Shown: piece after piece, positions 8,569 to 57,652 of the stretch
How the letters are laid out: every line of letters begins with the position of its first letter
Numbering within the stretch: position 1 is the first letter of the stretch
NCBI GenBank assembly: GCA_964036665.1
Contig: OZ038530.1
Coordinates: forward strand, 19,738,001 to 19,802,000
From: Gordius sp. MW1
Taxonomy: Eukaryota; Nematomorpha; Gordioida; Gordea; Gordiidae
Length of the DNA stretch: 64,000 bases
Direction of reading: 5' to 3'
Program-made: the position numbers and the translations under genes
Notes under the pieces: generated by a model
Told to the model about the DNA's origin: nothing
What the model saw: only the letters and a program-made list of their open reading frames with translations
The model's database searches: none

Positions 8569-9990
8569 ATGTCTAATCTAAACAATTCATCATCAAATAT
8601 ATATCCCTACAATTCGACAAACGATTACTGTATAAAAGTCGAAAAACTATTAATGACACGACGGTTTGGCATGCTAAGAGATATATATTCCGTTTTATTA
8701 CCGTTGATTATCGTTATGGGCTTAGTGGGAAATAGTCTAGGGGCATACATCTTTTTGTTTGTTATAAAACAAGAAGGCCGTACTACCCATACAAAATCTA
8801 AAAGGTGGAAGGATGTTCAATCTCAAACTGGGGAAATAATTAGCAAAACCTCTAACCCAAGTCCCCAAAACTCGCCAAGGGTGGTAAGTAAAAAGAAAAA
8901 GCTGACTCCCCCTGAACTTTTAACGGGTTTGCTCTTTATTGTCAATGTAATAAACAATCTTATCATGATCGTGTATCCTTTAGTTGACAATTTAGGAGAA
9001 TTCAAGAGTCTAAGGTTCTGGTACAGACTACCTTGGAACACATATATGGTTTATGTGCATTTCCCATTAGCCAAATCTTTGATTACTTTTAGTTTTTTCA
9101 TTAGCTTCCTAATGGCTTTTGCCCAAATAATTGCCGTAGCTAAGCCCCATTCCTACAAGCATTTATTTTCAAAAAATAGATTGCGCTGGTATATAGCAAT
9201 TAGCTTGATCTATGCGATACTGTGGTATATACCTTCTGCGTGGTGGTTTTCAATTTCTAAACTTAACTTGTGCCCGGATATTCTCAAGAAGAACAGGCGA
9301 AATCAACGTATTCAAAATACATTCTTTCGCAGTTATAAGTCCAATTATGTCTACATCAGTCCATTTAGGAGGTATGAATATTGGGAGGCCAATGCATGGA
9401 TAGCCTATGGAATCGCTAGAGAGCTGGCCACCAAAATACTTCCCTTTTTAGCCATTATTATATTTAAAGCTGCTTTTATTAGGCGTAAAAATAAAATCTT
9501 AAGTTGGAAATCTGATATATCATCTCCTAGCAGAGCTCGTGATCCTCCTAGCATCCAAATAAACAATCTACCAACTATAATACAGGATGATTCGTCCTTT
9601 GTAAAAAAAAACCTTCCCGTCAACAAAAGCAAAACAAATATTCACAAAGCCGTTGAGCTTTCAATATCCGTTATACCTAATGGAGTGAGTAATTCAGTTT
9701 TAAACAGTATGACAGCTAAAGCTGAAAAAGCGAAGTTAGATCATAAAACCAATCTAATAATGTTAACCATTTTAATGCTAGAATTTGTTATATTGCTGCT
9801 GCCATCATCAATATTTATGATGATTTTTGATCTTTACCTCGAGGACCTGAATAGCCATAATGTGGATTTCGCCTTTGCTATATGTATATTTCTGGAATAC
9901 TTATACGCTTCCATACCCTTCTACCTTAATTTCATGTTGAACAAGGGATTCCGGGACGCAACGTTACTATTAATAAAGAGAAATCCTTAG
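8569..9990 (+). CDS. Divergent rhodopsin-like seven-transmembrane receptor, intronless
   Basis: A 473-residue open frame with seven hydrophobic segments, near residues 40-66, 117-138, 164-190, 206-228, 278-303, 395-420 and 433-457. TM1 carries GNSLG (54-58), the GN signature of class A receptors. TM3 ends AVAKPHSY where a DRY motif is usual. TM7 has SIPFYLNFM (448-456) in the NPxxY region. The N terminus has N-glycosylation sequons (Asn6, Asn15). Intracellular loop 1 is about 50 residues and loop 3 about 90, both long and basic. The Cys normally at the start of TM3 is not seen. It probably acts as a plasma-membrane receptor, and the ligand cannot be inferred. The single exon and divergent motifs recall lineage-specific orphan receptors of flatworms, a comparison I make from memory. 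Start choice: first ATG of the frame. Confidence 0.8.
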   Translation: MSNLNNSSSNIYPYNSTNDYCIKVEKLLMTRRFGMLRDIYSVLLPLIIVMGLVGNSLGAYIFLFVIKQEGRTTHTKSKRWKDVQSQTGEIISKTSNPSPQNSPRVVSKKKKLTPPELLTGLLFIVNVINNLIMIVYPLVDNLGEFKSLRFWYRLPWNTYMVYVHFPLAKSLITFSFFISFLMAFAQIIAVAKPHSYKHLFSKNRLRWYIAISLIYAILWYIPSAWWFSISKLNLCPDILKKNRRNQRIQNTFFRSYKSNYVYISPFRRYEYWEANAWIAYGIARELATKILPFLAIIIFKAAFIRRKNKILSWKSDISSPSRARDPPSIQINNLPTIIQDDSSFVKKNLPVNKSKTNIHKAVELSISVIPNGVSNSVLNSMTAKAEKAKLDHKTNLIMLTILMLEFVILLLPSSIFMMIFDLYLEDLNSHNVDFAFAICIFLEYLYASIPFYLNFMLNKGFRDATLLLIKRNP

Positions 9991-28844: not shown

Positions 28845-30765
28845 AACTCGGGCCTTCGGCCCTCGTGGGAAGGGGGAGAAGGGAAGGGAAGAGGGGAAGG
28901 GAAGGGGGGACGACTCATCTGTACTTCGTATAAATGTATCATATTTGCTATGCAATTTATGGGCGAGAAAGGTGGGAAGGGGCGAGAATGCCTATAGGGG
29001 GGTATTAAATACCTAATGATTAATTAATTATTTATACAAATTTTCCATTATAGGCAAAATGTAATAAAGGCAAAATGTAATATAGGCAAGGGTTAGGGTT
29101 AGATTTAGTGTTTGCATCTAGTTGCGTATTACATTAGTTTTTATGGCCTTTAGTGATTATGGGTCTAACAAACATTATATTATAAAACAACACAATGTTA
29201 AGAATTTGCAGAATTGTTGGGAGAAATTTTTTGTTGAATTTGAACAATTTTTAATTAAAAAAATCAAAAATTTGGCCAATGGTCACTTTTTCTCTATTGG
29301 TCAGTACCAACAGATACTCTATAAGTCAATGATAGCCAAAAAAAAGGAAAAAAAAGTTTTGATGCTCACTTTGGCCAATGGTCATTTTTTTCCATTGGTC
29401 AGCAGCCAGCACACGGTAAAAGTGGATATGAATTCATAAGAGTAAAAAAACGAAAAAAAAATTTTCGAATCACATTTTGGCCAATGGTCATTTTTTTCCA
29501 TTGGTCAGCAGCCAGGACACGGTAAAAGTGGATATAAATTCATAATAGTCAAAAAAAAACGAAAAAAAAGTTTTCGAATCACATTTTGGCCAATGGTCAT
29601 TTTATTCCATTGGTCAGCAGCCAGCCGACGGCCAAAAAGTCATAATAGCAATGGTAGGAACAGGAACAATCATAATAGTCAAAAATAAACGAAAAAAATA
29701 ATTTCGATTCACATTTTGGCCAATGGTCATTTTTTCAATCGGTCAGGAGCCAGCGGACGGCCAAAAAGTCATAATAGCAATGGTAGTAACAGGAACAATC
29801 ATAATAGTCAAAAAAAAACGAAAAAATAAACTCGGATTCACATTTTGGCCAATGGTCATTTTTTTCATTGGTCAGCAGCCAACGGACGGCCAAAAAGTCT
29901 TATTATCAATGATAGTAACAAGAACAATCATAAGAGTCAAAAAAAACTCCGGGATTCTAACCCAAAAACTAGTTAAATTGCATAGCAATTAAAAGTAAAC
30001 AACTTTTATATATGTTTATTATATAACATTGGTCAGCAGCCAGCGGACGGCCAAAAAGTCATAATAGCAATGGTAGAAACAGGAACAATCATAATAGTCA
30101 AAAAAAACGAAAAAAATAATTTCGATTCACATTTTGGCCAATGGTCATTTTTTTCATTGGTCAGCAGCCAGCGGACGGCCAAAAATTCTTATTATCAATG
30201 ATAGTAACAAGAACAATCATAAGAGTCAAAAAAACTCCGGGATTCTAACCCAAAAACTAGTTAAATTGCATAGCAATTAAAAAGTAAACAACTTTTATTT
30301 ATGTTTATTGTATAACTAGTTAAATTGCATAGCATTAAAAGTAAACAACTTTTATCTATGTTTATTATATAACAAAAACTAGTTAAATTGCATAGCAATT
30401 AAAAGTAAACAACTTTTATTTATGTTTATTATATAACTAGTTAAATTGCATAGCAATTAAAAGTAAACAACTTTTATTTATGTTTATTATATAATAGATA
30501 ATTTAACAAATCTTATGTATAACACACCGAGAGAGATAGAGATGAGGGGTGGGGCACCTCTTATGCATTAATTCAAAAAATAACACAGCGAGGGAGATAG
30601 AGATGAGGGGTGGGGCACCTCTTTCTCATCCATTAATTTAAAAAAGCGATAACCTAATATACCCAATGCAAATAGATAGGGAGGGTAACGGACGGACAGA
30701 CAGACGGACAGACGGACGGACCGACAACAAAAAACGAGCCCATAAATTGCATAGCAATTAATAAA
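28845..30765. repeat. Large dispersed repeat, inverted relative to 3262-6765
   Basis: In opposite orientation this block repeats the landmarks of the 3.3-6.8 kb region. They are gggccttcggccctcgtggg and a G-rich tract, ataggcaagggttagggtta, a CCAATGG/CCATTGG array (29265-30190), the 58-60-bp tandem repeat (30245-30493), a two-copy tandem of about 75 bp (agagatgaggggtggggcac at 30536-30623), and a GGACGGACAGAC run ending gcccataaattgcatagcaa. The frame at 29122-29439 and the minus-strand frame at 6227-6445 translate almost identically, showing high similarity between copies. Confidence 0.9.
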
Positions 30766-30785: not shown

Positions 30786-31551
30786 ATGTTTTAAGTTTTT
30801 TATAAGACACTACAAATCCATTTCAAAAAACTTATTTCAAAATATAACAAAAACAAATATTGACAATGGCATTGGACATTATTAATTATTGTCAAAATGA
30901 AATTTAAATAGGTGTGTTTATGATTACCAAGTTAAAAAAATGATAGCGGGAAATATAACTGAATTGCGGTAAGATAACAACAGCTATATTTTATGCGTCT
31001 CATCTCTTTAAAATAAATTGAAAGTCTAATTTTGATTATTTAATTTGAATTATTAAATCTCAGCAAGTTAAATTTCTTTCAAAATTTACAAATAAGGATT
31101 CGGATCCGATTCTAAATTTCCATCGAAACAAATACCAAAAGTATTCGATTCGAAATCCAGAGGCGTAGGTTTTAGTAGGTCATAAAATATTTAATAATTC
31201 GTATAAAAGTTACTATTACCTACATACTCGGCTGAAATAGGGTAGTCCGTCGTCGTAGAAGAATAATAATAATTATCTACATAAACAAACAAATATTTAT
31301 TCAAATTAAAGCCAATATTGATAACGATTGTGAAATCTTTTTAACAAAATGGCTTAAAATTACTCTTTACTTTTAGTTTAATTTTTTTACAAATAGTACT
31401 CTTACAAAATTTATAACTACCTGTAATGGGTATAAGAGTAGTTTGGACGACTTCTATTGATAAAAAAGAATAATTATATTAATATATTCCTAGAAAATTT
31501 TGATGAATTAAATCAACGTTATTATAAATTTGTGGAAAGATAAAATTAATT
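30786..31551. other. AT-rich DNA 3' of the Cys-rich gene
   Basis: Apart from attcgattcga units at 31105-31160, nothing recognisable. The 3' UTR of the minus-strand Cys-rich gene should lie in the right part. Confidence 0.4.
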
Positions 31552-34500
31552 TTAATTAGAAATCACTATATTACTATCGTCACAAGGACACACTGCTTCG
31601 CATTTTTTACCACTGCATTTGTAGCCGCAGTGGTTTATTGCACAAAATGTATGATCTGAGATAAAATAATTTTATGATTATTATTACATCAATTTGAATA
31701 AAAAGATATTAAGATTAAATTAATCTAAAATTCAATTTAAAAAAGAATCGGATCGTTCAACAGCTGACAATTAGATATACATGTAAACCATTTTTCTTTC
31801 CATAAGAGTTACTCACTTTGGAAGGTCTTAATTTTCAAAAACCCTAAGCCCTAAATTTGAAACTATTATATAATTCGTTAAATTTCTTAACACAATATGG
31901 ATGCTTTAGTTACTAATCTCCTATGCTGGTGGCCCGTCAACTTGCCGAAAACCATCTCGCCGAATCCACCCTGGGATTTTGTGTTGTAGAGTTGTTAAAT
32001 TGCTAACTTTCTTCAAACTCCAGACGCGAGCACGCACACTGAGTTTATGCGCGTAGCACAATATGTGCTCGCTGTTCGGTGCACTAGGCAGAACGGTAGC
32101 ATATAAAAATGCTCGAGGGCCGAGCAGAAACTCGAGCAGATGGTAGCTGGAGTTGAAGAAAGTTAGCAATTTAACAACTCTAATTGGTTGAATGGGGGTC
32201 ATTTTTAAATTAGGGGATATTTTTTAACCGGGGGACATTTTATTCGGCGAGTTGATAGGGCACCCCCTGTGCTATCTTCATCAGCTGTTGACGTCAAATA
32301 ATGAAATTAACAAAATATTACATTGGTTTTGCTTTTGTATCTCTTTCAAGTCCTGGCTAATGTTTTTCATTAGATTGGCCTCGTAATCTACAAAAATGTA
32401 TATTATAGTTTATATTTGTAAAGTATAAACATCGTCTCTCATAATAAATTAATTATTTATTAATTAAGTTATTTGTCTACCCTTTTCGCACTCGCAAGCG
32501 TATTGGCACATTCTTTTCTCCGATTTGCAGCTAAATTCACAATTGGCCGGGATACACCCTGCTAAAGCAAAAATAGTTTAATTCCAAACCTTAATTTTTA
32601 CATATAACTTTAGAATTAAAATATAACTATAATCTGCAAATTTCCAAATGTAACTTTGCGTGAGCTATGAAAATCTATCAAGATTAAAAACATAGCAATA
32701 GATATTGCTTGTGATTCACCCATAGACTAGATACAGATAGACTACTCATCAACTTTAAATAAGTTTACCCTTAATCCGCCATTTTGAAATGTGCACAAAT
32801 AAGGTATTTACATATAGATTATAGTGATTTTGGTTAATATAAAGTGTTTTAAAAACTTAATAAAAAATTAGTTAAACATTAAACACAGAATTTTTAAATA
32901 TATCATTTAAAAAATTCGTAAAAATAAAAATACGGTAATGATGTGATGTTATCTGCATTTTAGCAAATAATAAACATTTATTAACATTCTTTTTATTTAT
33001 TAACTAATGAGGATTGTAAATTCACTTTTTCTGTTTAACAATGGGGTTCACTGCAGAAAGGCATGGGAGATGGGAGATATGTAAGTTAAATTCAAATTGG
33101 TGGATTTATGGTACACACATATTTTACAATATGAAACATATGGCATAAGCAGTCTATCTAGTCTATGGATTTACCTGATCCTGGTTTGACGGTGGTGTTT
33201 GAAGACACTTGCTGTCCTGATAAATTTAAAAAAATATGATATTTTTTTTTAATAGGCATTTTTTATTAAATGAAACTATAAAAAACTATAAAAATTATAT
33301 GCGAGGTAAACATTCGAAAATTGCGATAGCGTTGAAATGACAAATAATGATTCCGATTTTTTGTGTAATGAAAAAAGTTTCCCTATTGTCAAGGGTATTG
33401 GCAGCTATACGGCGTCCCAATTCTTTCAAAAGGGCTTGGGTTATAGGACCTATTGTTGTAAGGGTAGTGGTCACTATGCTTACAAATTTATATTTGATAA
33501 AGAAAAAACGTTTTAGATAGAAAATGATGAAATATGCTCAACGCTTTATTTAAAAAGTCTTACAAAACCAAATATTTATATTGTTTTTGTAACTAAAATT
33601 TTTAAAAAATTTTAATTAATTAAAAACACTCGGAATTGCTATGCAATTTTAAGTTGTAAATATTGATAAAAATATAGCGTTTCAAATTTTGTAGTTTTTT
33701 TTATCACCTGCCAAGCATGGACAAACAATCATTGCTCTATCGTCGCGCCTATAAAAGCACCCTTCTATGGAACAAGGAAGACCCTCTAATATATATATAG
33801 GTTATGAAAATATTATATATATTAATTTATTATACAACATTTTTTTAAATGATGTTATATTTGGGGTTTCAATTAAATTTTTAGAAAAAATATTTTAGTG
33901 TAACCGAGGCTTAACCTGGCTCGAGGCTATACATTATTGTTGTAAAAACGGCTGAATTTTCTTTAGTCGACGTTTGTTTTTAGTCGACTAAACATAAACG
34001 GACCATCGATTTTTTGGTCTCTATTTCTTAGTCGACCCCAAGGTTGAGTGGAAATTCGAAAAACAGACCAAAGTCAATCGTTAGTCCAAATTAAACCGGA
34101 CGGTCGACCAAACAAACCCCACCCGTTTTACCTACAATGTATAACACTTTGAATAACTTTAGTGATATTAATTTTTACCCGAATAAATGTGCAAATAGTA
34201 CTTTATAAGGGCGCATCGCATACATAAAATATTTTTAATTAACCAAGGAAAAATTAAAGAGATAAGAAGGCTTTTTGGGGCTAAATAACTCTAAAATCAT
34301 CGATATATAGGAAATAGAGTGTGGTTTTTTATATGATAAATTGCTAGGAATAAAGAGATTTGCAGTAAAAATCCCAAAAAATAATATAAAATTATTTGTC
34401 TAGGGCCCTTTAATATTTTATGGCTACGTTAGCCCCGGCCTCCCCTAAATTTAACATTGAAAACCAATTATGAGTGGAGCGAGGCGATTTACTTACGTTT

Positions 34501-36139
34501 ATTTGCAATCTGCTTTACATCCAGCGCCAAAGTTTTAGCGAATTTTTCACCGAACGCTTATAATGGTATCATAAACATTATTGATAATCAAGTGAAAAAC
34601 GTTAAATAACATAATTTATATAAATAAATGGATAATTATATTATACATTATAATTTATTAAAATCGAATTTTACATTTTGAACATGGGCAATGCATGTGA
34701 CAATGATAGCCAACACAAATCACTGGACAAGTTTTGGGTTCGTAACAATATGTATTATTATTATTAGTTTCGTCAACTTTGCTCACTATAGAAAACAATT
34801 TTAAAATGCAAAAATGTAAAATAATTTATTTTGCAGAATTTAAGCATTGAACAATTTATATATTTAAACCCAAGGCTATTTATATCTTGTAATTCTTTGT
34901 AATATTGCCAATAATAAAATCTAAGGTTTAATACGTATTTAATCATAGAGTATAATTAAAGAAATATAGTTTATAACAAATCAAGATTAAATTTTTTTTA
35001 GAAGATATACATTTTTGGGGGGTTTATAGTAGTTCTAGTTGTAGCCTTAACAATATTTTAGATTTTAAATAGAAATTATTTTGACTTACTTTTTTGAGCT
35101 TAGTCAAGTTTTGAATAGGAAATACACATTTAATAGCTATTTCTTTTGACATTTAACTATATAACTGATTATTTGCTTCAAATGAGGAGACTCAATTGCT
35201 AACTTGCTTAAAACTCCAGACGCGAGCACGCACACTCAGTTATTAGTATGCGCGTTAGCACAATATGTGATCGCTGTTCTGTGCATTAGGCGGAACAGTA
35301 GCATATAAAAATGCTGGAGGGCCGAGCAGAAACTCGAGCAGATGGTAGCTAGAGTTGAAGCAAGTTAGCAATTTAACAACTTTAGAGGTGAGGGACTTGT
35401 CGTAGCGGGGAAAGGGTAGACCATACGTTTTAATTTCTGATGATTATATTTTACAAGGAAAAAAACTGACAAGAATAGTTACGAGAGGATATCTTTAAAC
35501 TATTCTAAAAAATATGTGGAAGCATGTTTTATAAATTGCCATTGGATCCGTTAAATAATCATATATTGAAATTGCATAACAATTAATATCCAAATTCTTC
35601 ATTTATTGATTTTAGATACCAAAATAGAATAAAGATTGTAATAAACTTAAAATGATAACATTTTTCAGATAATATTTTTGGTCATTTTTAACTCTTTTAG
35701 AAATATTGTTGTTTGATATTTACCTATAAATAAATTGTATACAAATTTATTCGTTTTTCGTTGAGCACTAGGTTTCCCTACATATATTTATCACATGTCG
35801 ATTGAAAATTAAGTTTAATTTTAATTAAAATTATAAACCAATGCATGACGATAATTGTAAAAGCGGAGCATTTTTGCTAGTAAATAAATGAAATCAGTTA
35901 GGTTGTAGAACATTGGCTAAGGTGCATCATTTAAATTGAAGCATAAACTTATGCCAAAAACTATTATAATTTTAATATATAAAAAGAAATAAATAATCAA
36001 TTTCAAAAAATGCATTCCATTCCAAGTGTACCTTTGAGCAAAAAACTAATAACTAATACACCAACTTACCGCTTCCTTTAATTCCTATGTGAAAAGTCAA
36101 TGGGATAAGTAAATAGCAAGCATTAAGGGATATAAACAT
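31552..36139 (-). CDS. Secreted modular cysteine-rich protein, eight exons (novel)
   Basis: Exons in order on the minus strand: 36139-36070, 34785-34675, 34556-34497, 33785-33708, 33216-33175, 32558-32481, 32387-32322, 31655-31552. Every intron is GT-AG and phase 1, and the joined frame is open for 202 codons. Exon 1 encodes a signal peptide (MFISLNACYLLIPLTFHIGI). Exons 2, 6 and 8 each encode a Cys module of the form C-x(4-5)-C-x3-C-x(4-6)-C-x3-C-x-C, ending CPC or CEC. Exon 4 encodes the same module with the two middle cysteines missing. Exons 3 and 7 encode short, probably helical linkers with a shared pattern (LDVKQIANKQ and QDLKEIQKQNQ), and exon 5 a Ser/Thr/Gly linker. The repeated linker-module exon pairs indicate growth by exon duplication. 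I recognise no family. It is probably extracellular and disulfide-rich, with unknown function. There is no transcript evidence, but consistent phases and cysteine spacing make the model strong. Confidence 0.8.
31927..32263. mobile_element. CAACTTGCCGAA-family MITE, split by a younger MITE
   Basis: Ends tggtggcccgtcaacttgcc and cggcgagttgatagggcacc match the element at 19481-19752. The interior is interrupted by the element at 31988-32181, giving the order of insertion. It lies in the last intron of the Cys-rich gene. Confidence 0.75.
31988..32181. mobile_element. MITE family with AGAGTTGTTAAATTGCTAAC ends, copy 1
   Basis: About 194 bp. The left end agagttgttaaattgctaac and right end gttagcaatttaacaactct are exact inverted repeats. 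The inner arms carry caaactccag and ctggagttg, and gctcgagggccgagc lies inside. Copies lie at 35185-35384, 48825-49019 and 58185-58395. Confidence 0.9.
32725..33172. mobile_element. MITE-like element, inverted copy of 23335-23725
   Basis: It begins agatagactactcatcaact and ends agcagtctatctagtctatg, which are partly complementary. Internal landmarks match the copy at 23335-23725. It lies between exons 6 and 5 of the Cys-rich gene. Confidence 0.7.
33265..33436. repeat. Inverted copy of 1577-1750
   Basis: See the entry at 1577-1750. This copy lies in the intron between exons 5 and 4 of the Cys-rich gene. Confidence 0.75.
33948..34137. mobile_element. MITE with TGTAAAAACGGCTG end
   Basis: It begins ttgtaaaaacggctgaattt, contains several gtcgac/tagtcgac motifs and ends near cccgttttacctacaatg, a degenerate complement of the start. 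A related element at 42594-42740 ends ccagccgtttttacaacac. Confidence 0.6.
35185..35384. mobile_element. AGAGTTGTTAAATTGCTAAC-family MITE, copy 2
   Basis: Interior (gcgagcacgcacactcagtt, gctggagggccgagcagaaa) matches copy 1. The left terminus is eroded and the right end is gcaatttaacaactttag. It lies in the first intron of the Cys-rich gene. Confidence 0.85.
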
Positions 36140-36670
36140 TTCACAAACACTATTTAAAAATGTATCAACATTGTTGCTTCTACTATAAACAATTATTCAA
36201 AATATGTATCCATTGTTAATGATATTAAAGCACTATAGATTTGATTTCATAAATTTTAAAGCCAATTGGGAGATGCTATTTAAATACAATTACTATTTGA
36301 AGGTAAACCTATAATAAACACTAAATAAGTGGGAGCGTGGATCTGCCATCTAGCATCTGTCAAATTGATCAGATTTATCATTACTGACGTTAAAATAACA
36401 TTTAATGAAAGTTCAATAAACAATTAGTTATGTATAGATTTAATGTTAAATGGTCATTTTTTGAGTAAAACTGGTGTAATAGGAGCAACAGGAAAAATAA
36501 TATTCTAAATTTATTTCTGCCCTTAGACATATTTTTTAATTTAATTTTATGACTAACTCGATTTGCGCAATATATTTTTTTCAAATTTGATTATGCTATT
36601 AAATAATTAGCTTATTGATTTGTCATAAATATCATAACACACCAGTCAACAGAAAAAATCTTTATTATAT
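36140..36670. other. AT-rich DNA upstream of the Cys-rich gene
   Basis: No gene seen. The promoter of the minus-strand Cys-rich gene should lie here, but I see no motif I can defend. Confidence 0.35.
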
Positions 36671-37035
36671 TACGCACCCATGGGCGTACGGCTGCCCCCC
36701 CCCTCTCTAATGTACGAAAAAAAAATTTCATTGCAAATACATTGAAAAATTAAAAAACTTGGGCCTTCGGCCCTCGTGGGAAGGGGAAGAAGGGAAGGGG
36801 AGGGGAAGGGGAGGGGGGAAGGGGAGGAGGGGAAGGGAAGGGTGACGACTCATCTATACTCCGTTTAATCGTAGCATATTTGCTATGCAATTTATGGGCG
36901 AGAAAGGTGGGAAGGGGCGAGAATGCCCATAGGGGGGTATTAAATGCAAAATTATTAGTAATTATTAATTTACACAAATGTTTAAAAAGTTAAATGGTAT
37001 TAACAAGAACAATATATTAATTTAAAAAATAAAAA

Positions 37036-37082
37036 AATTTGCCCTCGCCGGGATTCGAACCCACATCAGTAGAGGCATAGGC
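37036..37082 (-). repeat. tRNA-like B-box fragment inside a dispersed repeat
   Basis: On the minus strand the sequence reads GTGGGTTCGAATCCCGGCGA, a close match to a tRNA T-arm/B box. No full cloverleaf is visible, so this is a tRNA-derived part of the repeat and not a gene. Confidence 0.4.
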
Positions 37083-37327
37083 TTTTGTAGGGGCACAGGG
37101 ACCCATATCAGTAGAGGCGTAGGCCCTTGTAGGAAAGGGCATAGGGTTATTATCAATGTTAACCTCATATACCCAATTCAAAAACGAAAAAATAAAATTT
37201 CGATTTATAGGGCCAATGATCATTTTTTCATTGGTCAGTAGCCAGCGGACGGTCAAAAATTCATATTATCAATGGTATTAACAAGAACAAAATATTAATT
37301 TAATTTAAAAAAAAATTACAAAAAATT

Positions 37328-37388
37328 CGTCCTCTCCTGGGATTGAACTCTAGACCTCCAGGTCACAGAGCTGGCGCCATAACTTGGT
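37328..37388 (-). repeat. Second tRNA-like segment (SINE-like head)
   Basis: The minus strand reads GGCGCCAGCTCTGTGACCTG and then AGAGTTCAATCCCAGGAGAG, resembling the anticodon arm to T-arm of a decayed tRNA. It suggests that the dispersed repeat contains SINE sequence. Confidence 0.35.
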
Positions 37389-37512
37389 GGACAGATGGAC
37401 AGACAACGGACGGACAACAAAAAACGAGCCCATAAATTGCATAGCAATTAATAATTTATGTTTAGCCCCCCTCTAAAAGAACTTTTAAACGTTTTGCCCC
37501 CCCCCCCCCTAA

Positions 37513-39539
37513 TTCAAAATATAATAGTTGCTTCATAGATACCTAAAAATAACATAATCAACCAGGAAGATTAATAAAAACAATTATAGGCTTACTGTAA
37601 TAAACGTTATAATCTTAAACAAGCATGTAGTCACGATTTTCTCAAGAGAGGGGGGGGGGAGGAAAGCTGCCAAAAAATTAAATAATTTTACTTGAAAATA
37701 AAAACTAAGGTTAAACAACCAAAATGTCGGCCCATTGCCGGGCCCTCTTGACGGGTAGGCAACCGTTAAATTTAGTTTTTCAAGTAGGACCGGTCAAATA
37801 ATGAGATTTTTCATAATGTTTACTATTTTTGTCGCTTTTTAATTTAAAATTGGAGAATTAAACCAAAAATGTTCAAAAATACGACCAAACCAATGCTTAA
37901 AATTTAAAAACATCATTTTGTGTCCCGGAGTTTGGACAGCTTTAGTGAATTTGGTATGGCCGGATGGACTCTTAGAAGGTTTTGGGCGGGTCCTGGCTAA
38001 CAATTTAGTATTCAAACCGTGATGGGTTCTGGCAGAAAAATTTAGACAAATATGATCAATGATAAAGGTATCAATTCAGTGTATATAATGTGGTGCGCTG
38101 TAATGAATAGTCTTTTAATCTTTCATTTGCTCAGCGATTGTCATTTTTTAAATTGGATTTCATCTTAAATAAGCTTTAAATCTCTTGATGGAAAAACTAT
38201 GATCATTGATGCATGTGGTGTTGGGAAGTCAAAAGTGTGTGGCTTAAGCTTTTTGCCGATATCAAGAGGGTGCAAGTTGAAGGTAAGCGAAAGAGAGGTA
38301 AGCCTTGGCTAAAATAAAAACAAGAAATAAAGCGGGTGTAAGTGCAGGAATATGTGGAAAAACTACTTGACGGAGCTGACCACCAAGTGTGAAAAACAGC
38401 TATGGGAAAATAATAAAAAATATAGAATTTATATTTATATTGATAGGCAATGCTTAATTAGGTTTAGATATGCATATGTTTTGACTATGTATGCTCAAGT
38501 AACAACTTGAATAATTGACCATAGTATTTATAATAATTGAAATATCTATAAAATAAATTATTATATCAAACATAAAGTTGCTAATGCCTAGAAATGGGAG
38601 GGTCTGGTGTTTCCACACAAAAAATGTACAATTAAGATTCTTTTTACAGCAATTTGCAAATCATATTCGGAAATATTATAACGGTGGGCACTAAGCTTTT
38701 TCGAAAATATAATTTAAAAAAAAAGAAAATTTGAATATTATCATTCAGTGCCTCAAAATTTTTATGTAACTACTCTATATTAATTTAACCTATTAAATTT
38801 ATTTATAAATCAAAATTTCAAACTTTGGCCAACCCCTTGGCTACGCGCCTCATCCTAAAATAAGTTGGGCTACCAGCAAATTTGCTGTTCGACAGGATCT
38901 AAATTAATGCAATGAAGCTTGCCGAGCTTATCTACTTTTAACTCACACCAAACCAAATGTATTTCCTAATTACGTAAATATGTTGACTTGCAAACAGGCG
39001 CATAGCCAGGATTTTAACGAGAGGGGGGGAAATCTGGCAAAAAAAGTTTAAAACGCATTTTTTGAAAAATAAATCAAATTAAATTAGATGTATATATTAT
39101 GTTAGGTTTTAATAAGTGTCTTAAAGTCTTTGATGTAACTAAACTCTAATATTTTACCCATTTCATTTAGATATTAATCAAAAAACTGGGGGGGGGATTG
39201 CAAAGAGAATTGAGTGATACATTACTTGTCTAATTTATTTCAGCACCTCAACATTTAGCATAGCACAGCTAATAGATACCCATCAATTGTGTGAAGTCAG
39301 GCTACTAGACTCTAATATAATAAATTCATATATAGATTGTATTTTTGCAAAATAATATAGTTTAAATCAAAATGTTATAGCAGAGAACATTTTTTGTAAA
39401 CACTTAATTTTGTTAACATAATATGACTCCGTCATATGCTTTCCCTCAACCATCTTTTCGATAATCGTCTATTATGAAGTCACTTGTAAACATCGAGTCA
39501 TAAATAAGGGTTTAATTGGCTTAAAAACGAATTTAAATC
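37513..39539. other. AT-rich spacer with retroelement scraps
   Basis: Around 38250-38400 the plus strand encodes, across frames, KRKRGKPWLK and KQEIKRV, resembling the basic end of a LINE ORF, at low confidence. Eroded GGCGTAGCC MITE ends occur near 38832-38850 and 38996-39030. The rest is AT-rich and probably includes the ZNRF-like promoter. Confidence 0.35.
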
Positions 39540-42500
39540 ATGGGAAGCAAGCAAAGCTCACCACCGAGGCCAAGAAATAGCGAAGGCTTTTACCACTATT
39601 CGTCGGCCACTTCAACATTAATGGCACACAGGCCCGGAATATTGGCAGTAAATGATTCTAGTAGACCGCGTGCTAGGAGCTTATTTTCTAGTATGAATGA
39701 CGATACAATAAGTTATTCTTCATCCCCCAACACGTTATCAGTCACACCTACTTTTATGGAATCTGAAACAAGCTCAACTGACAATTCTATTCTTTCAGGA
39801 AGATTATTAGCACTCAATCACTTATCACATTCATTGCCACCAGCATTGTTCACATTTGAGGGTAAATATACCTTTTACAAAAATATAATAAAGACTTTTA
39901 TCAACATGTAATCCTTATGTTTAATTTTAACACTTAAAAGATCTTCCAAAGATAAAAAAAACCTTGTTTTAATTAATATTATTACTATAGGATTTTTTAT
40001 AAATTTTGATTTTGTATTAACTTTTCACTAAAATGTTTAGTTTTAGTGAGCTCAAATTAGTTTATTGTTTTTAATAATATGTAATGTTTAATAAAGATAT
40101 GTCAATTACTTATATCATTTATATTTAATTATTTTATATTTGAATACATTATTTTATTTATACCAGTCTTACTTTAGCATTATACCTATTTTAGTTTCTG
40201 CTTATCTTTGTTTAAATCTTTTAAATATTGTCAATACATCATGTTGCTATACTGCCTAGGGCCAAAAATAAAATGGGTTGAAATATGGGAAAAAGATAAA
40301 CGTCGACTAATAATATAATCAATTTTCCAGCTCATGTAAATAATAGCACTCTTGTTTAAATGTCACAGACAAGTAGGAGCAGAAAAGCTAAATAATGTAT
40401 TAATATTTCAATTTATTACATTTTAAATAACAATTGTATGCAAACCTAAAAAATTATGTATTGCTTGTAGAAAGTTTACCTTAATCAAACCATTATTTTG
40501 CTTATATTTAAATATTATATTAGTTTTCCCTTTTATTGCAGATGATGCAATAATTTATAATGTAAATAATAATTAGAATCCTTAATACAAAGTTTGGGTT
40601 GCAAACTTGTCTAAGATTTAGGAAAGTAAATATTTGTTTGTACAAGATAATTAATTTTGTTTCTACTTTGAATATTTTTTGTATGTTAAAAAAGTAAAAC
40701 CATTTTTTACCGAGTGTATTGGTAATTAATTAAGCCATTTTGATTCATCTATGTATGTCCTCTAGGGAGGTTCAGCCAACTTGAAGTAGAATTATTAAAC
40801 AAATTAGTTAATATCTCACAAGTATAAATTTGCAAGCTTAGCCAAGTGTAAGTAATAAGTCAAATTAATAGGAAAAATACGTGAATTAATTTTGCGCATA
40901 TATATTATTTTCGTTTACTGTCATTTTAAATCCCAAGAACATTTTAACTTTATACTTCGTTGGTCATTTGGGGTCCTTGGGACTAAAATTATAAAATGTA
41001 TATTGTGTATTACAACATCATATTAGATAAATTTAACTACAAACATATCTTGGGGTAACAGTATGCGTTCAAAATAAACGTGTTTTCTCCCGATTATATT
41101 AATTTAGTTTTATCTATTTTACAATATTAAATTAGTTTTATTTGTTTATAAAACAAAAATTAATTTTCCTAAAATCACTTAATGCTACTAATTTTATAAC
41201 CTAAGTAAGCGAATGATTTCAACCATATATCCAGTTACTTAAAAAAACTGACATAGAATGGTGTGCTCATAAATATTATTAAGTTCATACTTTTCTTTAA
41301 TTTTTAGACTCGTTTTTAACGAGGAGGAAAATGATATATCTTAAATATCTTTCTTGTTTCACTAGAAACTTTTTGACTATTTATATAATGGTAAATTTAT
41401 TTTAAAATTATATTTTCTTGCATATTTATTTTATATTTATTTGTAAAACAAATTTCGTTTTTTCAATCTTAATCAAGGTCTCAAATGTCCGGTATGTTCT
41501 CGTAAGCTGCCCACCGACGATATCGAATACCACCTGGTTATGTGCTTAACGAAACCCCGCCTCAATTATAACGGTAAAATTGATTTGATTTTAATGCGAA
41601 TTTCAATCACTTTGAATAAGGAAATATGATGGCGGACACAAGTGAATTTATCAAGTATTTGGTCCCACAGTCGTGGGGTTTGTTTCGATGAGTTTCTTCC
41701 ATCTTGATCGGGTGCGTGCCATGTCTTGATTAATCTTCTTACTTTTCATTACTTTGTCCACTTGCCCTTTCCACTTCCTCTCCTGCCCGGTACCTCCATG
41801 TCCAGTACTATTTGATTTACGTCATTCGTCTCTCTTCTTAGTATATGCCCATACCACCTTAGCCAATTTTCGTTAAGCATGTCCGTAGGTTGAATACCCA
41901 TTTTTTGTCTTGAGAAAGTCATTCGTCATATGGTCGAGCTTAGTATACTCCCGCCGTATTATCCTCATCTCCGCAGACTGTGTGGAGAAAAAACGTTTAC
42001 CTATCTTTTTAGCCATTACATTGAATTAGAAAGTTTTTATAAAGGTGCGCGAATTGCATTGCACGTTAAAGAGAAATCATCTATAATGTCTGTTTGAACC
42101 GCTATAAAATTATTAACTTTCTCTCGACATTGTTTAACTGCTTTTTAACAGTTTCCCATATTAAAGTTTAACGAAAGTTGGACAGGACAGGACAAGACGG
42201 ACATTTTTCTTAGTGAGGGCCGGGCCCGTAACTTGCGTAGCAATTAATTTACCGTTTGTTAATTTTTAAAATTTATCCAAGTTTTATCACGCATTTCGAA
42301 AGTTGTATTCATACGTTTCGTATTTTTAAATTCCTTTATTTTTTCGCGTAGAAGACACGCTCAAGGAAGATGGGAAGGGGGAATGCCCCATATGCCTGGA
42401 CGATATGCTGAAGGGCCATAAAATAGCCAGACTACCCTGCCTCTGCATTTACCACAAACCGTAAATTTCCCCCTTTTCTTGCATTAAACATTTATTTTTA

Positions 42501-45500
42501 TTTAACCCCAACGCTCCGCTATTTATGTGGGGGTGGGGGCCTTTAAAAAGGTAGGAGATATTTGTGAAATTTGAAAATAACTAACAAACCAGGGTTGGAA
42601 AAAGGGCTGGGTTTCGCTTGGTCGACCTTTAGTTTTACTAAGACTACCGGTCGCTTCTGGTCTGTTTTTATAATTTCGACTAAGCTTAGGGGTCGCGACT
42701 ACCAAACGTCGACCAACCAAATTCCAGCCGTTTTTACAACACTATTACAAAAGCTAATACGACAATTTACGTATTCGAGTTAAATAGTTTGCATAGTGTG
42801 TACAAAGTTTGAAATAAGATTTACGTTAAACGGTATACGTATTTTAGGCTTCGTTTAAAACAAATTGTTAGTGTGAGGAGGGCCATAGACTAATGATACT
42901 ATACGCTGGCGAATAGCAAATAATAATTATTAAGCATGGGCGTAGCGAGCATTGGAATTAGAGGGGCGCAAAATGGTCATTTTTTTAAAATTTTAGCCAC
43001 AATTTTGATAAATTTTAACAAATTTTTGGATTTAGAGGGAAGCAACCGCTCCTTGACTACGCCCATGTTATTTAGTAGGGGTGTAGTCCGCCATTTTTGA
43101 GTTATATTTTAACTAACTAAACCCTATTAATTTTGTTGAATAATAAAATTAAATGTTAAACTTACGTGTATGGAAAGATAGTACTTTAACGTTCGCCTTT
43201 TTCTTCTTCCATAATATTTGCATTTTTTTACTGTACAAAGTTACTTTATAAATTTTTATGCCAAAATAAACTAAAATAATTGATTTTAAAGGTGGATTAT
43301 ATTAGCTATTCGACTACTTGACTAAATTAATCGTTGAATACATGGGTGTAGCTAGGGGGGGGGGTCAGGGAAATGCGGCTGCCCCTCTAAATCCAAAAAT
43401 TTGTTAATGTTTATTAAAATTATAATGATCATTTTGGCCCTCCCTAAATCATTATTGCCACCCCCCTCTAATTCTAATGCTGGCTACGCTCATGGTCGAA
43501 TTACACCTACACGATTTTATGGAGATATAGCCAAGGTAGTCTGCATAAATCATTAGTAGTTAGTCGTTTTTGGATTGTCATAAGCATTTAACTTTTTACC
43601 TTCTTACTACATTAGCGAAGCACTTCTTTTAGTTAGTATTAATTAATTCCAAGTTGAAAAAGATTAAGGGATTTGCCATTTATTTTATAAAGAATAAATT
43701 AAGGTTACGAATTAGATGCTGAAAAAGTTCCGGTTTTCAAAATTGATATTTTTTTTATTGATTTAGGCTCAAATTAAAATTGTTGGCTTAATATCTCTGT
43801 GGTGCTTGATAGCGCACAAATTTTGCATTCTCAATTCCGGGTCCGGTAACTATTTAAGAGTTAAAATCGTTTAAATACATGAATTTAATTGATCTTATTT
43901 TGACTCGAAGGACGCTATTAGTGAAAACTGATTTGCGATAGAATACTCGTTAAAAAATCACCTTTTTCGAGTTTTGGGTAGCCTATTTTTAAATTAAATA
44001 AATAATATTGCCATTTTACCCAATTTGATGTCGCACTTGAAATTGTCATCGTCCCACCCACTCGAAATTAAAGAAGGGGGGTGTTTGTTTATAAAATTTT
44101 TTGGAGATTTTAAAAATCGATTTCTCGTCTCCCCTATAATAAGGGAATGATTCATTTTACTTACGCACGATCTCGGTCAATCGATGATTCGAGACAAATC
44201 TCGACGTCAACCAAATTTTAGTTGTTTACTCCACTCTGAGTAATTATATCATTATCATTAAATCCAGGCGCGTAGCCAAGGGGGCAGAAAGCGGGAATTT
44301 TCTACCCCCTTGACCAAAATTTGTATTTTTTTTAAAGGTCCATGTTCTTTTTTAAGGTATAGAATCGATAGTAAATGCTCTAATTAATGAAGAGAAGAGA
44401 TTTTTCCAAAGCTGGTTATAAAGCCCCTTGAAGTTTCGCATATATTGTACGCGAAGTTTACTTTTGTTACATTAGAAATAAAAGTGTCCAAAAATTTTTT
44501 TGAATTTTTCTTTCCCCTTGAGAAAATCCTGGCTACGCGCCTGATTAAATCTACCCCTGTCAATTGCCAACCCATTTACGGGGCTTGCCCCAATTATGTG
44601 CGTGCAGTTTTAGAGCCTTCGAAAATTTTTAAAAATATAGTGATTTGACCATAGGCGTAGCCAGGGGTTGGCAGGGAGGGGCGGCTGCCCCCTCTAAATT
44701 CAAAAATTCTTTTCAAAATTTATTTGCCCCTTTCTAAATCACAATTGCCCCCCCCTCCTCTAAATCCAATCCTGGTCACGCCCATGGATCTGACTAAAGA
44801 CTAATACGACAGCAAATACCTGATCCGCCATGTTTGACATATATATATTGACAAACTAAACGCTTTATTCATTTTATTAAAATTAATGATAAACTTACGC
44901 ATGAAAAAAGGTAATCCTTTAACGTTCTCAATCTCATTATAATCTTTTTCGCATAACGTTTCCAATTTATCACTACTGCACTATGCTGCACTAGTGCGCC
45001 TATTGAAAATACTTCACCAAAATGGCGGTCTAAGTTACTTAAAAATTTGATGGGAAAATCAGCATGGATTTGACCGTTTTAAACAACGACGTTACCTGAT
45101 GTGTCACGAGATAGGGGGTGATTGGTGGGGAAGCTTTTAAGCTAAATGGCACTTATCTTATGACGCATTTTGGCTTTGTTTACTATATATGTGTCATACA
45201 TCTCATGACCTAGACAAACGTTATTAATGTTCTCTAAAAAAACGAAAACATGCAGTATTGATATGTAGTGGCAATTTTAAGTCAGTATCTCGCGGCGCGA
45301 GGCTTTACATGGAAAAATATCTAGGTATAAATTAGATGGGTTTCTACCCAATGTCTCGCTCGTGAAGCTTAAAGAGATGTCAATTTTAAATTGTTTTCGT
45401 TGTTTAATTGGTGTCAGTTTATGTCATTCTAACAGCACGCCATGCTATAACCATACCTCCAAGCCTCATATATAATTAAAAAAAAAATTCATTAGCTGTT

Positions 45501-48824: not shown

Positions 48825-49019
48825 AGAGTTGTTAAATTGCTAACTTGCTTCAACTCCAGCTACCATCTGCTCGAGTTTCTGCTCGGCCCTCGAGCATTTT
48901 TATATGCTATTGTCTAGTGTACCGAACAGCGAGCACATATTGTGCTAACGCGCATATTAAGCAACTCAGGGTGCGTGTTGGCGTCTGGAGTTGAAGCAAG
49001 TTACCAATTTAACAACTCT
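48825..49019. mobile_element. AGAGTTGTTAAATTGCTAAC-family MITE, copy 3
   Basis: Starts agagttgttaaattgctaac and ends aatttaacaactct. The orientation of the interior is reversed compared with copies 1 and 2. Confidence 0.9.
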
Positions 49020-50292
49020 ACCAAGAGGGGGTAGCCGTCTTAAAATGCTTAAAACACTCTTAAATTTTTTTAGTGAAATCAAAGAGTGCATAAAAGTTCG
49101 ACTCTTAATTTTAAAGACAATAAGATTAACAAATTCTTAAGGCTTTAATCACCTTTCAAAGTTTATAGGATTGCTAGTGATGGTTAGAAGCAGGTTTTAT
49201 ATCACAAAAAAAAAGAAATTTGAAAACCTCGTTTCTAAATGTTTAAAATCATAAAATATCACATTTCCTATGCTTAAATCTAAAAGCATTGAAATGTTAA
49301 CCAGGATTGAATAGAAAAGTTGACTTTTAGTTTTTGAATAAGAAATTTATATATCACAAATTGGTTATATTGCCAACGCGCTTGTGCAGTTGAAAATAAA
49401 TATGTAATATTTTATTAGTTCATTTATAATTTCATACTTTTATTTTATGCGTTGAATTTAAAAACTTCAGGAAAATGTTTTGTTACGATTATTTTTTAGA
49501 TGTTTTATAAAAATTCGAACCCGGGCTTGACTCCTAACTTTTTTATTTAAAATTCGGGGCCCGATTTGAATTATGAAAATGAAATCAAAAATCATAATGA
49601 AGTTATCATTCCAGATTCGGCAAAAAACTTTATAGTCTAATTTTCCTACTTTCTGTGAACACTCATTAACTACGAAAATTTACGTGCTTATAATAATCAT
49701 AAAAATTTAGTCCACAAACCTAACTTACATGATTTGTAAATAAAATTTCTAAAGCCCATATAAATTCAAATTTAGTGGTAAGAAATAAATGGATGATTAC
49801 AAAAACGCAATTAGTAATCTCATGTGTATTTATTTTAAATAAAATAATTTAAAATTCCGTGTAAATTTGCTAATGCCTACGCCAATGTGTAGGTTTCTTC
49901 TCTTCCCCATAATTTGGATCGATTGTGGATTTACCGGTGTAACATCCAATTCTTAGCTTATTTGAAATCTTGGCTACGTCAATCAAACAATCATAGAAGT
50001 TCATTTTTATGGCAAAAAAAGTTTTTATAGGCTGACTTAAACGTAAATCAATTATTTTGTATTTAGTTTTTTAACCCTCGAGTTAATTATCATAAATAAA
50101 TTGAATTAACTTATTAAATTCTAACAATTTCTATATAATCGGCTGAATTGCTATGTAATCGAATTTATTACCTGGTTAATGATCGTTTGACATTAAAATC
50201 AAGGAATGTGCTGCGACCTCATCATTTGCAATGAACTCTTTCTTGACTACAAAAAAATGGGTTACAATAAGTAATATTAAGATTAAATATAT
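49020..50292. other. AT-rich DNA, no gene recognised
   Basis: I see no coding signature between the MITE copy 3 and the duplicated 3' end of the integrase-like gene. Confidence 0.45.
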
Positions 50293-55093: not shown

Positions 55094-57652
55094 TTAAGCA
55101 GTAAATTTCCGTGGAGTAGTTATAGTTCTTCCATATCTAGACATCCGTTGTTGAACAGGTAAAGTGTTACTATCCTCTTCTTTTGCTTCGATCCATGCTG
55201 GTTTAAGTCTATCAATAGATATGGTTTGTTCTTTGTTATCTTTTGTCACTTTAAAAAATTTCTTACTCCTTTTTACTACCTTAAACGGTCCATCGTATGG
55301 GGGTTGTAAAGATTTTCTGACCGTGTCATTACGTACAAAAACATACTCTGATGTTTTTAAATAATTAGGAATATATTCCTTTCTATAATGTTTTCTGGTA
55401 GGGCAGAATTTTAAATTTTGCATTATTTCTTTAAGTCTAATTACATAACCTGGTTTAGATGATTCTATGAACGATTTTTGAAAAAATTCCCCTGGTAGCC
55501 TTAACGTCGTCCCATAAACCATTTCCGAAGGAGTGTATCCGATATCTTCTTTGATTGTCGACCTAATGCTGAGAAGAATTAATGGTAGTGTTTCACTCCA
55601 TTTTGTTGTATCTTCCTGTGTCATGATGGAAGCCTTTAACTGCCTATGGAACCGCTCAACTAACCCATTAGAACACGGGTGATAGGCTGTAGTTCTGATA
55701 TGGTCCGATCCTAATGTGGATGATAATTCTCGGAATAAACTGGATGTAAATTGAGCCCCTCTATCAGTAGTTATAACCTTTGGGACACCAAAATTGGCAA
55801 CCCAGTATTCAATAAATATTCGTGCTAAATTTTCCGCTGATGTCTCGTTGATTGGTATTGCTATGGGCCACCTCGTAAATCGATCGATGGCTGTAAAAAT
55901 ATGGGTGTAGTGAGATGAAGGTGGTAAAGGGCCTACCACATCCAAATGCACGTGACTGAACCTCTCGTCGGTGTCGTCAAAAATGCCGGGTGAAGTGATG
56001 GTGTGTTTGTTCACCTTAGATTTTTGACATTTAATGCATTCTCTTGTCCAATTCCGGATATCTTTGTTCATTGATGGCCACACAAAACTGCGGGTAATGA
56101 GTCTTTGAGTTGCCCGAATCCCGGGATGTGAGAGAGAGTGAAAGTGGTTGAAGAAATTTTTCCTCAGTCTTGTAGGTATAAGTGGTCGCGGTGCACCTGT
56201 AGATATGTCACACAGAATGTCTTTTTGACAACTGGGGCTTTTTAATTTCACAAGACGCAAAGATTTTGTGTTGAGCAGTAACTCCGGATCATCCATTTGG
56301 TTCATAATTATTTGGTTGTCATTAGGACAAAAAGGTAGAGTTAGAGACGTTATGTCTGACCGAGATAATGTGTCAGCTGTAATGTTACTATTACCTTTTA
56401 TAAAGCGAATGTCGGTACTGAATTGCGAGATATAATCCAAATGTCGAATCTCTCTGGGTGAGTAACGATCAATTTTTGCTTGGAAAGCATAAATTAAAGG
56501 TATTATGATCCGTAAATATAGTGAAATGACGTCTTTCCAGTGTGTGTTTGAAATGTTTAATCGCCAGAAAAATAGCTAGTAATTCTCGTCCAAATATACT
56601 ATAGCGTGTTTGAGCTGCTAATAGTTTTTGGGGAAAAAAAGCTAATGGTTGTTGTTTGTTATCAATTATTTGGTGTAAAACTCCCCCTACTGCTATGTTC
56701 GAAGCATCTGTGGTTAACGTTAACCTACAGTTTGGTTTTAAAAATCCTAAATTAGTTGCTTTAATTATACTTTGTTTTAGGAGATCAAATGAATTAATTT
56801 CTGCGTCCGTTATTTTAATCTCTTTCTCATCATTGTTTAATAGGTCGGTAAGTGGTTTCGAAATTGAAGCACAATTTGGTATAAACCGTCTATAAAAATT
56901 CACCATACCTAAAAAAAGTTTCAAACTCTTCATTGTTTGAGGAATTGGAAAATCCCTAATCGCGTCAATTTTGTTTGACAAGGGGTGTATGCCATTTTGA
57001 TCGACGTGATGACCAAGAAAGTTTAATGATCTTACCCCCAAAGAACATTTTGATAGATTTATCCGAATACCGTATGTTTGTAATCGTTCAAAAACTGTTG
57101 CGAGGTGTAATTTGTGTACATGTTCTGTGGAACTGGCGATAAGTATATCATCAATGTAGGCGTACACAAAATCCAAATCATTAAAAATGTCATCTATGAG
57201 GCGCTGAAATGTTTGTGCTGCGTTCCGAACTCCGAAAGGCATTCTTAAAAATTCAAACAGCCCAAAAGGTGTTGTGATTGCGGTCTTCGGGATGTCCTCT
57301 GGTGCCACCGGAATTTGATGGTAAGCTTTTACCAAATCCAACTTTGAAAAAATGAATTTGCCTGTTAGATTTAAAGTGAAATCATGTAAATGTGGTATCG
57401 GGTATCTATCAGGTCTTGTTGCGTAATTAAGCATTCTAAAATCTCCACATGGACGCCATGTCCCTGGGGCCTCTTTTGGGACCATGTGTAAGGGGATGAC
57501 CATTTACTATGTGAAGGTCGTATTATTCCTAATCTCCTCATTTCTTCAAATTCTTTTTTTGCTATTTGAAATTTTTCGGGGTTTAAACGTCGTGGAGAAC
57601 AATGGATCGCTGGTCCTTTTCTTATTATATGGTGTTTGGTATTATGTTTCAC
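55094..57652 (-). pseudogene. pol: Pol (RT, RNase H, integrase) of a CsRn1-like Ty3/gypsy element, frameshifted and 5'-deleted
   Basis: Three minus-strand frames form one Pol: 57652 to about 57495 (start of RT, with RRLNPEKFQIAKKEFEEMRR), 57503-56469 (RT core with [14 protein letters not shown] and the active site YAYIDDIL, then RNase H with TDHN), and 56440-55094. The last holds the RNase H end and an integrase with zinc region HFHSLSHPG...CIKCQ, DDE residues in HLDVVG, TTDRGAQF and NGLVERFH, and a C-terminal tail. Breaks are a one-base loss in TCCCC near 57497 and a shift near 56475-56480. Gag and protease are missing: the start codon context MNTQ just after the primer site runs almost directly into RT. 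Pol would copy and integrate the element DNA. This copy cannot do so alone. Confidence 0.9.

Follow-up and report, generated by a model that had tools for sequence, protein, structure and literature searches.

A predicted secreted protein with repeated small cysteine modules in Gordius sp. MW1 and its possible likeness to antistasin-type inhibitors

Antistasin inhibitors carry their reactive bond in the three-residue loop that follows the second cysteine (Cys2). Two related anticoagulants of Hirudo medicinalis have been described, CRA (PMC12731043) and MCRA. MCRA is described as an antistasin-like protein of four domains encoded by 13 exons, and its second domain is disrupted, an arrangement explained by duplication (PMC12838937). 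The domain pattern published there for CRA and MCRA is C-X4-C-X5-C-X4,6-C-X-C-X4,5-C-X3,4-C-X9,10-C-X2,3-C-X-C (PMC12838937). Here we describe a predicted gene on the minus strand of a 64,000-nucleotide (nt) window of Gordius sp. MW1 (assembly GCA_964036665.1, contig OZ038530.1, positions 19,738,001 to 19,802,000). The locus probably holds a real gene of several exons whose product is a secreted protein of cysteine modules, and we tentatively compare this product with the antistasin-type inhibitors. The source genome comprises 211.8 Mb in 12 contigs, and the window lies on contig 4. Motifs, donors and repeats were counted in a wider region of 264 kb around the gene.

Eight segments bounded by AG and GT are joined through seven GT-AG introns, with every junction in phase 1, into a frame of 202 amino acids that ends in TAA (Table 1). 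Direct reading of the minus strand bore out this architecture, which had been proposed in an initial annotation of the window. Four exons contain cysteine modules (C1 to C4). Spliced together with a signal exon (E1) and linker exons (L1, S and L2), they would give a predicted secreted multi-module protein. The precise choice of exons, the signal peptide on E1 and the 3' terminus are all predicted. E1 ranks second in hydrophobicity among the 14 start-exon candidates in 34786-44000 and has an excellent donor (top percentile).

The cysteine modules share a distinct frame. The pattern C-x4,5-C-x3-C-x4,6-C-x3-C-x-C was matched three times in the six frames of the window, by C1, C3 and C4, and was absent from 150 simulated windows of first-order Markov sequence. 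A looser six-cysteine pattern gave the same three matches, and no more, over the 264 kb. C2 has only Cys1, Cys2, Cys5 and Cys6. The pattern had originally been ascribed to all four exons; it holds for C1, C3 and C4 and fails for C2, in which Cys3 and Cys4 are absent. We also observed a regularity that the initial annotation did not contain: a GTR donor is located exactly 7 nt past the final cysteine codon in all four cysteine exons, including C4. On both strands of the 264 kb there are 407 C-x-C codon pairs, and 11 of them have GTR at this +7 position. In five of these 11 the frame also stays open as far back as a phase-1 AG; C1 to C4 account for four of those five. C2 is assigned to the set of cysteine exons because it has the same +7 donor. 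An origin as chance open frames is rejected for the cysteine exons, but not for L1, S, L2 or E1.

Duplication of the modules is supported by the common donor and by the resemblance of C2 to C4 beyond the cysteines, which was equalled by 1 of 1000 shuffles with fixed cysteines. The other five pairs of cysteine exons were not alike beyond the cysteines (127 to 433 of 1000 such shuffles were as good). The modules probably arose by exon duplication, and a cysteine-linker-cysteine block was probably copied once. This is the simplest reading because C2 resembles C4, L1 precedes C2, L2 precedes C4, and L1 weakly resembles L2. The D-x-K-x-I motif by which the linkers had been considered alike is present in both L1 and L2, but their likeness is not significant, since their pair score of 24 was reached by 24 of 300 pairs of random segments. 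No second copy of any of the eight exons was found by blastn in the 264 kb.

Repeats occupy parts of the introns. Copies of a repeat of about 190 bp, 88-91% identical, are located in two introns (window 31986-32182 and 35194-35384) and also near 48825-49021; this repeat looks like a small mobile element. Further intron repeats, which recur at other places in the 264 kb, lie at window 32708-33157, 33239-33478 and 33931-34115. Repeated blocks were also noticed by eye downstream of the gene, at window 29300-30500.

Like CRA and MCRA, the predicted protein would be secreted and is cysteine-rich, with several modules that probably arose by duplication. MCRA shares with it four modules of which the second is damaged, which may be a coincidence. 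Judged from the published pattern, the CRA/MCRA domain differs in having ten cysteines and a loop of 9-10 residues, whereas each module of the window has six cysteines, or four in C2, at other distances. The C-terminal C-x2-C motif reported for CRA and MCRA is absent from the window frame.

The genome of Gordius sp. MW1 is itself rich in antistasin modules. By a lower-bound count with Pfam PF02822 (E up to 0.001, all above the curated cut-off, 145 candidates scored), it contains at least 77 matches, compared with none in 14 control genomes. Searches of the genome for hirudin and for the annelid haemoglobin linker, both run with no positive control, gave no match. Ten antistasin loci were cut out, and modules were recognized by pattern in eight of them (none in L045 and L050). 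These eight loci gave 52 modules, in every one of which Cys3 and Cys4 are separated by 9-11 residues and Cys4 and Cys5 by two. Five loci (L043, L044, L046, L047 and L052) hold 24 of the modules; here, a phase-1 acceptor lies at most 14 nt before Cys1 in 22 of 24, and a phase-1 donor is found at +1, +4 or +7 in 20 of 24. Most modules of these loci occupy a small phase-1 exon of their own, which is the layout seen in the window. The other 28 modules belong to L048, L049 and L051 and lie mostly within long tandem frames. On contig 5, at about 4.181-4.190 Mb (L048 and L049), tandem antistasin modules occupy open frames of 260, 403 and 292 amino acids; L049 has 13 modules, in contrast with the single-exon modules on contig 3.

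We consider it possible, and slightly prefer, that the product of the window gene works as a short-loop antistasin-like serine-protease inhibitor. The case for this function is based on the cysteine order, the exon layout and the genome setting. The antistasin modules of the genome follow the order C-x(3-5)-C-x3-C-...-C-x-C, which C1, C3 and C4 share (three of the four cysteine exons). We also count in its favor that none of the eight exons holds a repeat seen at other places in the 264 kb. Each module would form a small disulfide-stapled hairpin. By analogy with antistasin, the three-residue loop after Cys2 would be presented to the target protease, and the tandem modules would offer several protease-binding sites. 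Among the functions offered in the initial annotation, a protease-inhibitor-like protein is the best candidate in a genome so rich in antistasin modules.

Several observations weigh against the inhibitor reading. The loop between Cys3 and Cys4 has 4, 6 and 4 residues in the window modules, compared with 9-11 in the antistasin modules of the genome, and the Cys4-Cys5 gap is three residues rather than two. Unlike the antistasin modules, those of the window lack, by eye, a G-x-x-x-D-x-x-G-C stretch. A hidden Markov model (HMM) built from 51 distinct antistasin modules of the genome scored C1 to C4 at 1.3, -2.0, 5.7 and -0.9 bits, whereas the lowest training module scored 32.5. These scores were equalled by 60, 247, 36 and 214 of 300 shuffles with fixed cysteines, respectively, which is no clear gain. 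Against full shuffles only C3 stood out (4 of 300, compared with 25 for C1, 225 for C2 and 74 for C4). PF02822 itself matched neither the full-length protein nor any of its modules up to E 10, with the HMMER filters applied, and the listing of a profile search of the PDB contained no antistasin. Many kinds of secreted domain also have a phase-1 exon for each module. Membership in the antistasin family is therefore not supported by any sequence test.

An unrelated effector is nearly equally probable, with the antistasin-type inhibitor slightly ahead. In this alternative, about as tentative as the inhibitor reading, the protein is a real secreted multi-module product, and its module is a lineage-specific, cysteine-stapled hairpin of the kind that might act as a defence peptide, as a venom-type peptide or as part of a mucus or cocoon matrix. 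The negative antistasin HMM test and the absence of a family match agree with it, and C1 and C4 have the inner spacing C-x3-C-x4-C-x3-C of the tachyplesin/gomesin-type hairpin peptides. The window protein differs from these peptides in its extra outer cysteines, in having several modules on separate exons, and in modules that, by eye, are not strongly cationic, and the last of these tells against this alternative. AlphaFold2 returned low-confidence hairpins for C4 both alone (predicted local distance difference test, pLDDT, 63.6; predicted template modelling score, pTM, 0.26) and together with C1 and C3 (pLDDT 60.9, pTM 0.27), with strands at 10-14 and 17-21/22. Judged by position in the model, Cys2 is opposite Cys5 and Cys3 is opposite Cys4. 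Pairing of Cys3 with Cys4 is also suggested because C2 lost exactly those two residues; the joint loss and the model positions together hint at a nested pairing, as a stapled hairpin would have. However, a Foldseek search with the model gave a single match, at E 9.7, and the many antistasin modules of the genome, which agree in cysteine order and in phase-1 exon layout, argue for the inhibitor instead.

The statement that the protein belongs to no recognized family held in the Pfam, PDB, protein-database and antistasin-HMM tests, all of which were without significant match. A protein-database search with the whole protein scored 15 candidates and retained none at E up to 10, and a single-sequence search of the PDB gave nothing significant. 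The top hit of the PDB profile search was the scorpion channel blocker alpha-KTx 5.4, which has a CS-alpha/beta fold and a comparable C-x3-C and C-x-C framework. However, this match was not significant (E 0.059 and 0.33) and was split into two short overlapping pieces, and alpha-KTx 5.4 has a longer third loop than the window modules. Inhibitors of the TIL type (PF01826) gave no Pfam match for the protein or its modules; a whole-genome search for them, run without a positive control, was also empty. L1 showed a Pfam match to Cupiennin, on residues 63-81 of the protein, that lies below the cut-off (E 0.015, 15.9 bits compared with 27), and this identity was set aside, as was a sub-threshold match of C4 to Fer4_RLI (E 0.12). 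A literature search, largely at the level of titles and abstracts, returned no publication on this cysteine module.

Paralogues, which the initial annotation had suggested seeking, were not found in protein searches of the genome, although their word-based first pass would miss distant ones. The full protein gave nine matches, eight of them to the same gene, and a weak match was seen at a locus on contig 5 (L014; E 0.333, 41% over 46 residues). The last module retrieved only itself, and C3-L2-C4 gave three matches, all in the same gene. Two short motifs were also followed through the genome and rejected. C-E-C-E-K occurs at five sites, four of them outside the gene, and none of the four has the six-cysteine frame. 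C-x2-V-C-P-C occurs at seven sites (11 for the backward controls), and the six-cysteine pattern was found at none of the six loci outside the window.

It is also conceivable, but quite improbable in our view, that the locus is a relic that has decayed or was never expressed, or that a few cysteine exons are real while the linkers and the start exon beside them arose by chance. Phase-1 symmetric open AG..GT segments are indeed frequent by chance, with 489 on the minus strand of the window, and codon usage is uninformative, as 574 of 2000 null sets were as good as the frame. C2 lacks two cysteines, C3 has a weak donor (56th percentile among all GT sites), and repeats lie in parts of the introns, all of which would suit this reading; the splice scores of S are good. 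It speaks against this reading that the four cysteine exons are all open on the same strand, share a single donor position and contain no frame break, and that such sites are rare.

Because C4 shares its +7 donor with the other cysteine exons, it is doubtful that the gene ends at 31552. Its phase-1 donor, ATA|GTAATA, would give an exon of 81 nt. C4 may be internal, or it may be a once-internal exon that now closes the gene; the second option is suited by an AATAAA at 31301, about 250 nt beyond the C4 stop. A longer gene is close to an even prospect and is compatible with either functional reading: C4 would use its donor at 31575 to join additional exons, for example X1 and X2, and the stop at 31552 would fall within an intron. 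Besides the shared donor of the fourth cysteine exon, it is favored by X1 and X2 themselves, which are phase-1 symmetric with fair to good splice scores. However, phase-1 segments are frequent by chance, with 13 of 36-129 nt in the 852 bp downstream, the likeness of X1 to S is not significant (103 of 400 random segments were as good), the flanks hold no additional cysteine module by the looser pattern over 264 kb, and the AATAAA fits a terminal C4.

Table 1. Predicted and candidate exons of the cysteine-module gene (window coordinates)
Feature	Position	Strand	Description
E1	36070..36139	-	predicted signal-peptide exon; runs from ATG to the phase-1 donor GCG|GTAAGT
C1	34675..34785	-	six-cysteine exon, C-x5-C-x3-C-x4-C-x3-C-x-C
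L1	34497..34556	-	predicted linker exon with D-x-K-x-I
C2	33708..33785	-	cysteine exon without Cys3 and Cys4; resembles C4
S	33175..33216	-	predicted short linker exon; in 81-nt gap between two repeats
C3	32481..32558	-	six-cysteine exon, C-x4-C-x3-C-x6-C-x3-C-x-C
L2	32322..32387	-	predicted linker exon with D-x-K-x-I
C4	31552..31655	-	six-cysteine exon, C-x4-C-x3-C-x4-C-x3-C-x-C; terminal with TAA, or internal 81-nt exon 31575-31655
X1	31421..31453	-	candidate additional 33-nt phase-1 exon
X2	31220..31276	-	candidate additional 57-nt phase-1 exon

Two other features were noticed in the window. A receptor-like open reading frame of 473 amino acids in a single frame lies at 8569-9990 on the plus strand, with a weak rhodopsin-type match (7tm_1, E 8.6e-5, below the curated cut-off). 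Together with the introns and the antistasin modules, this match fits an animal genome. At 55094-57503 on the minus strand, two adjacent frames resemble, by eye, the reverse transcriptase and integrase of a retrotransposon.

Beside the short-loop antistasin-like inhibitor that we prefer, a more specific proposal, which we regard as unlikely, is that the gene presents a new minimal module. This would be a hairpin stapled by three nested disulfides (Cys1-6, 2-5 and 3-4), one per phase-1 exon, with the donor fixed 7 nt past the last cysteine; duplication of the cysteine-linker-cysteine block would have led to a lineage-specific multivalent secreted effector or inhibitor. If the gene is real, it shows phase-1 exon duplication spreading a very small cysteine module, in a genome whose antistasin modules have also become numerous. 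The locus would then be a direct case for asking how new disulfide modules form, whether out of older inhibitor domains or next to them. Such genes would escape homology-based annotation.

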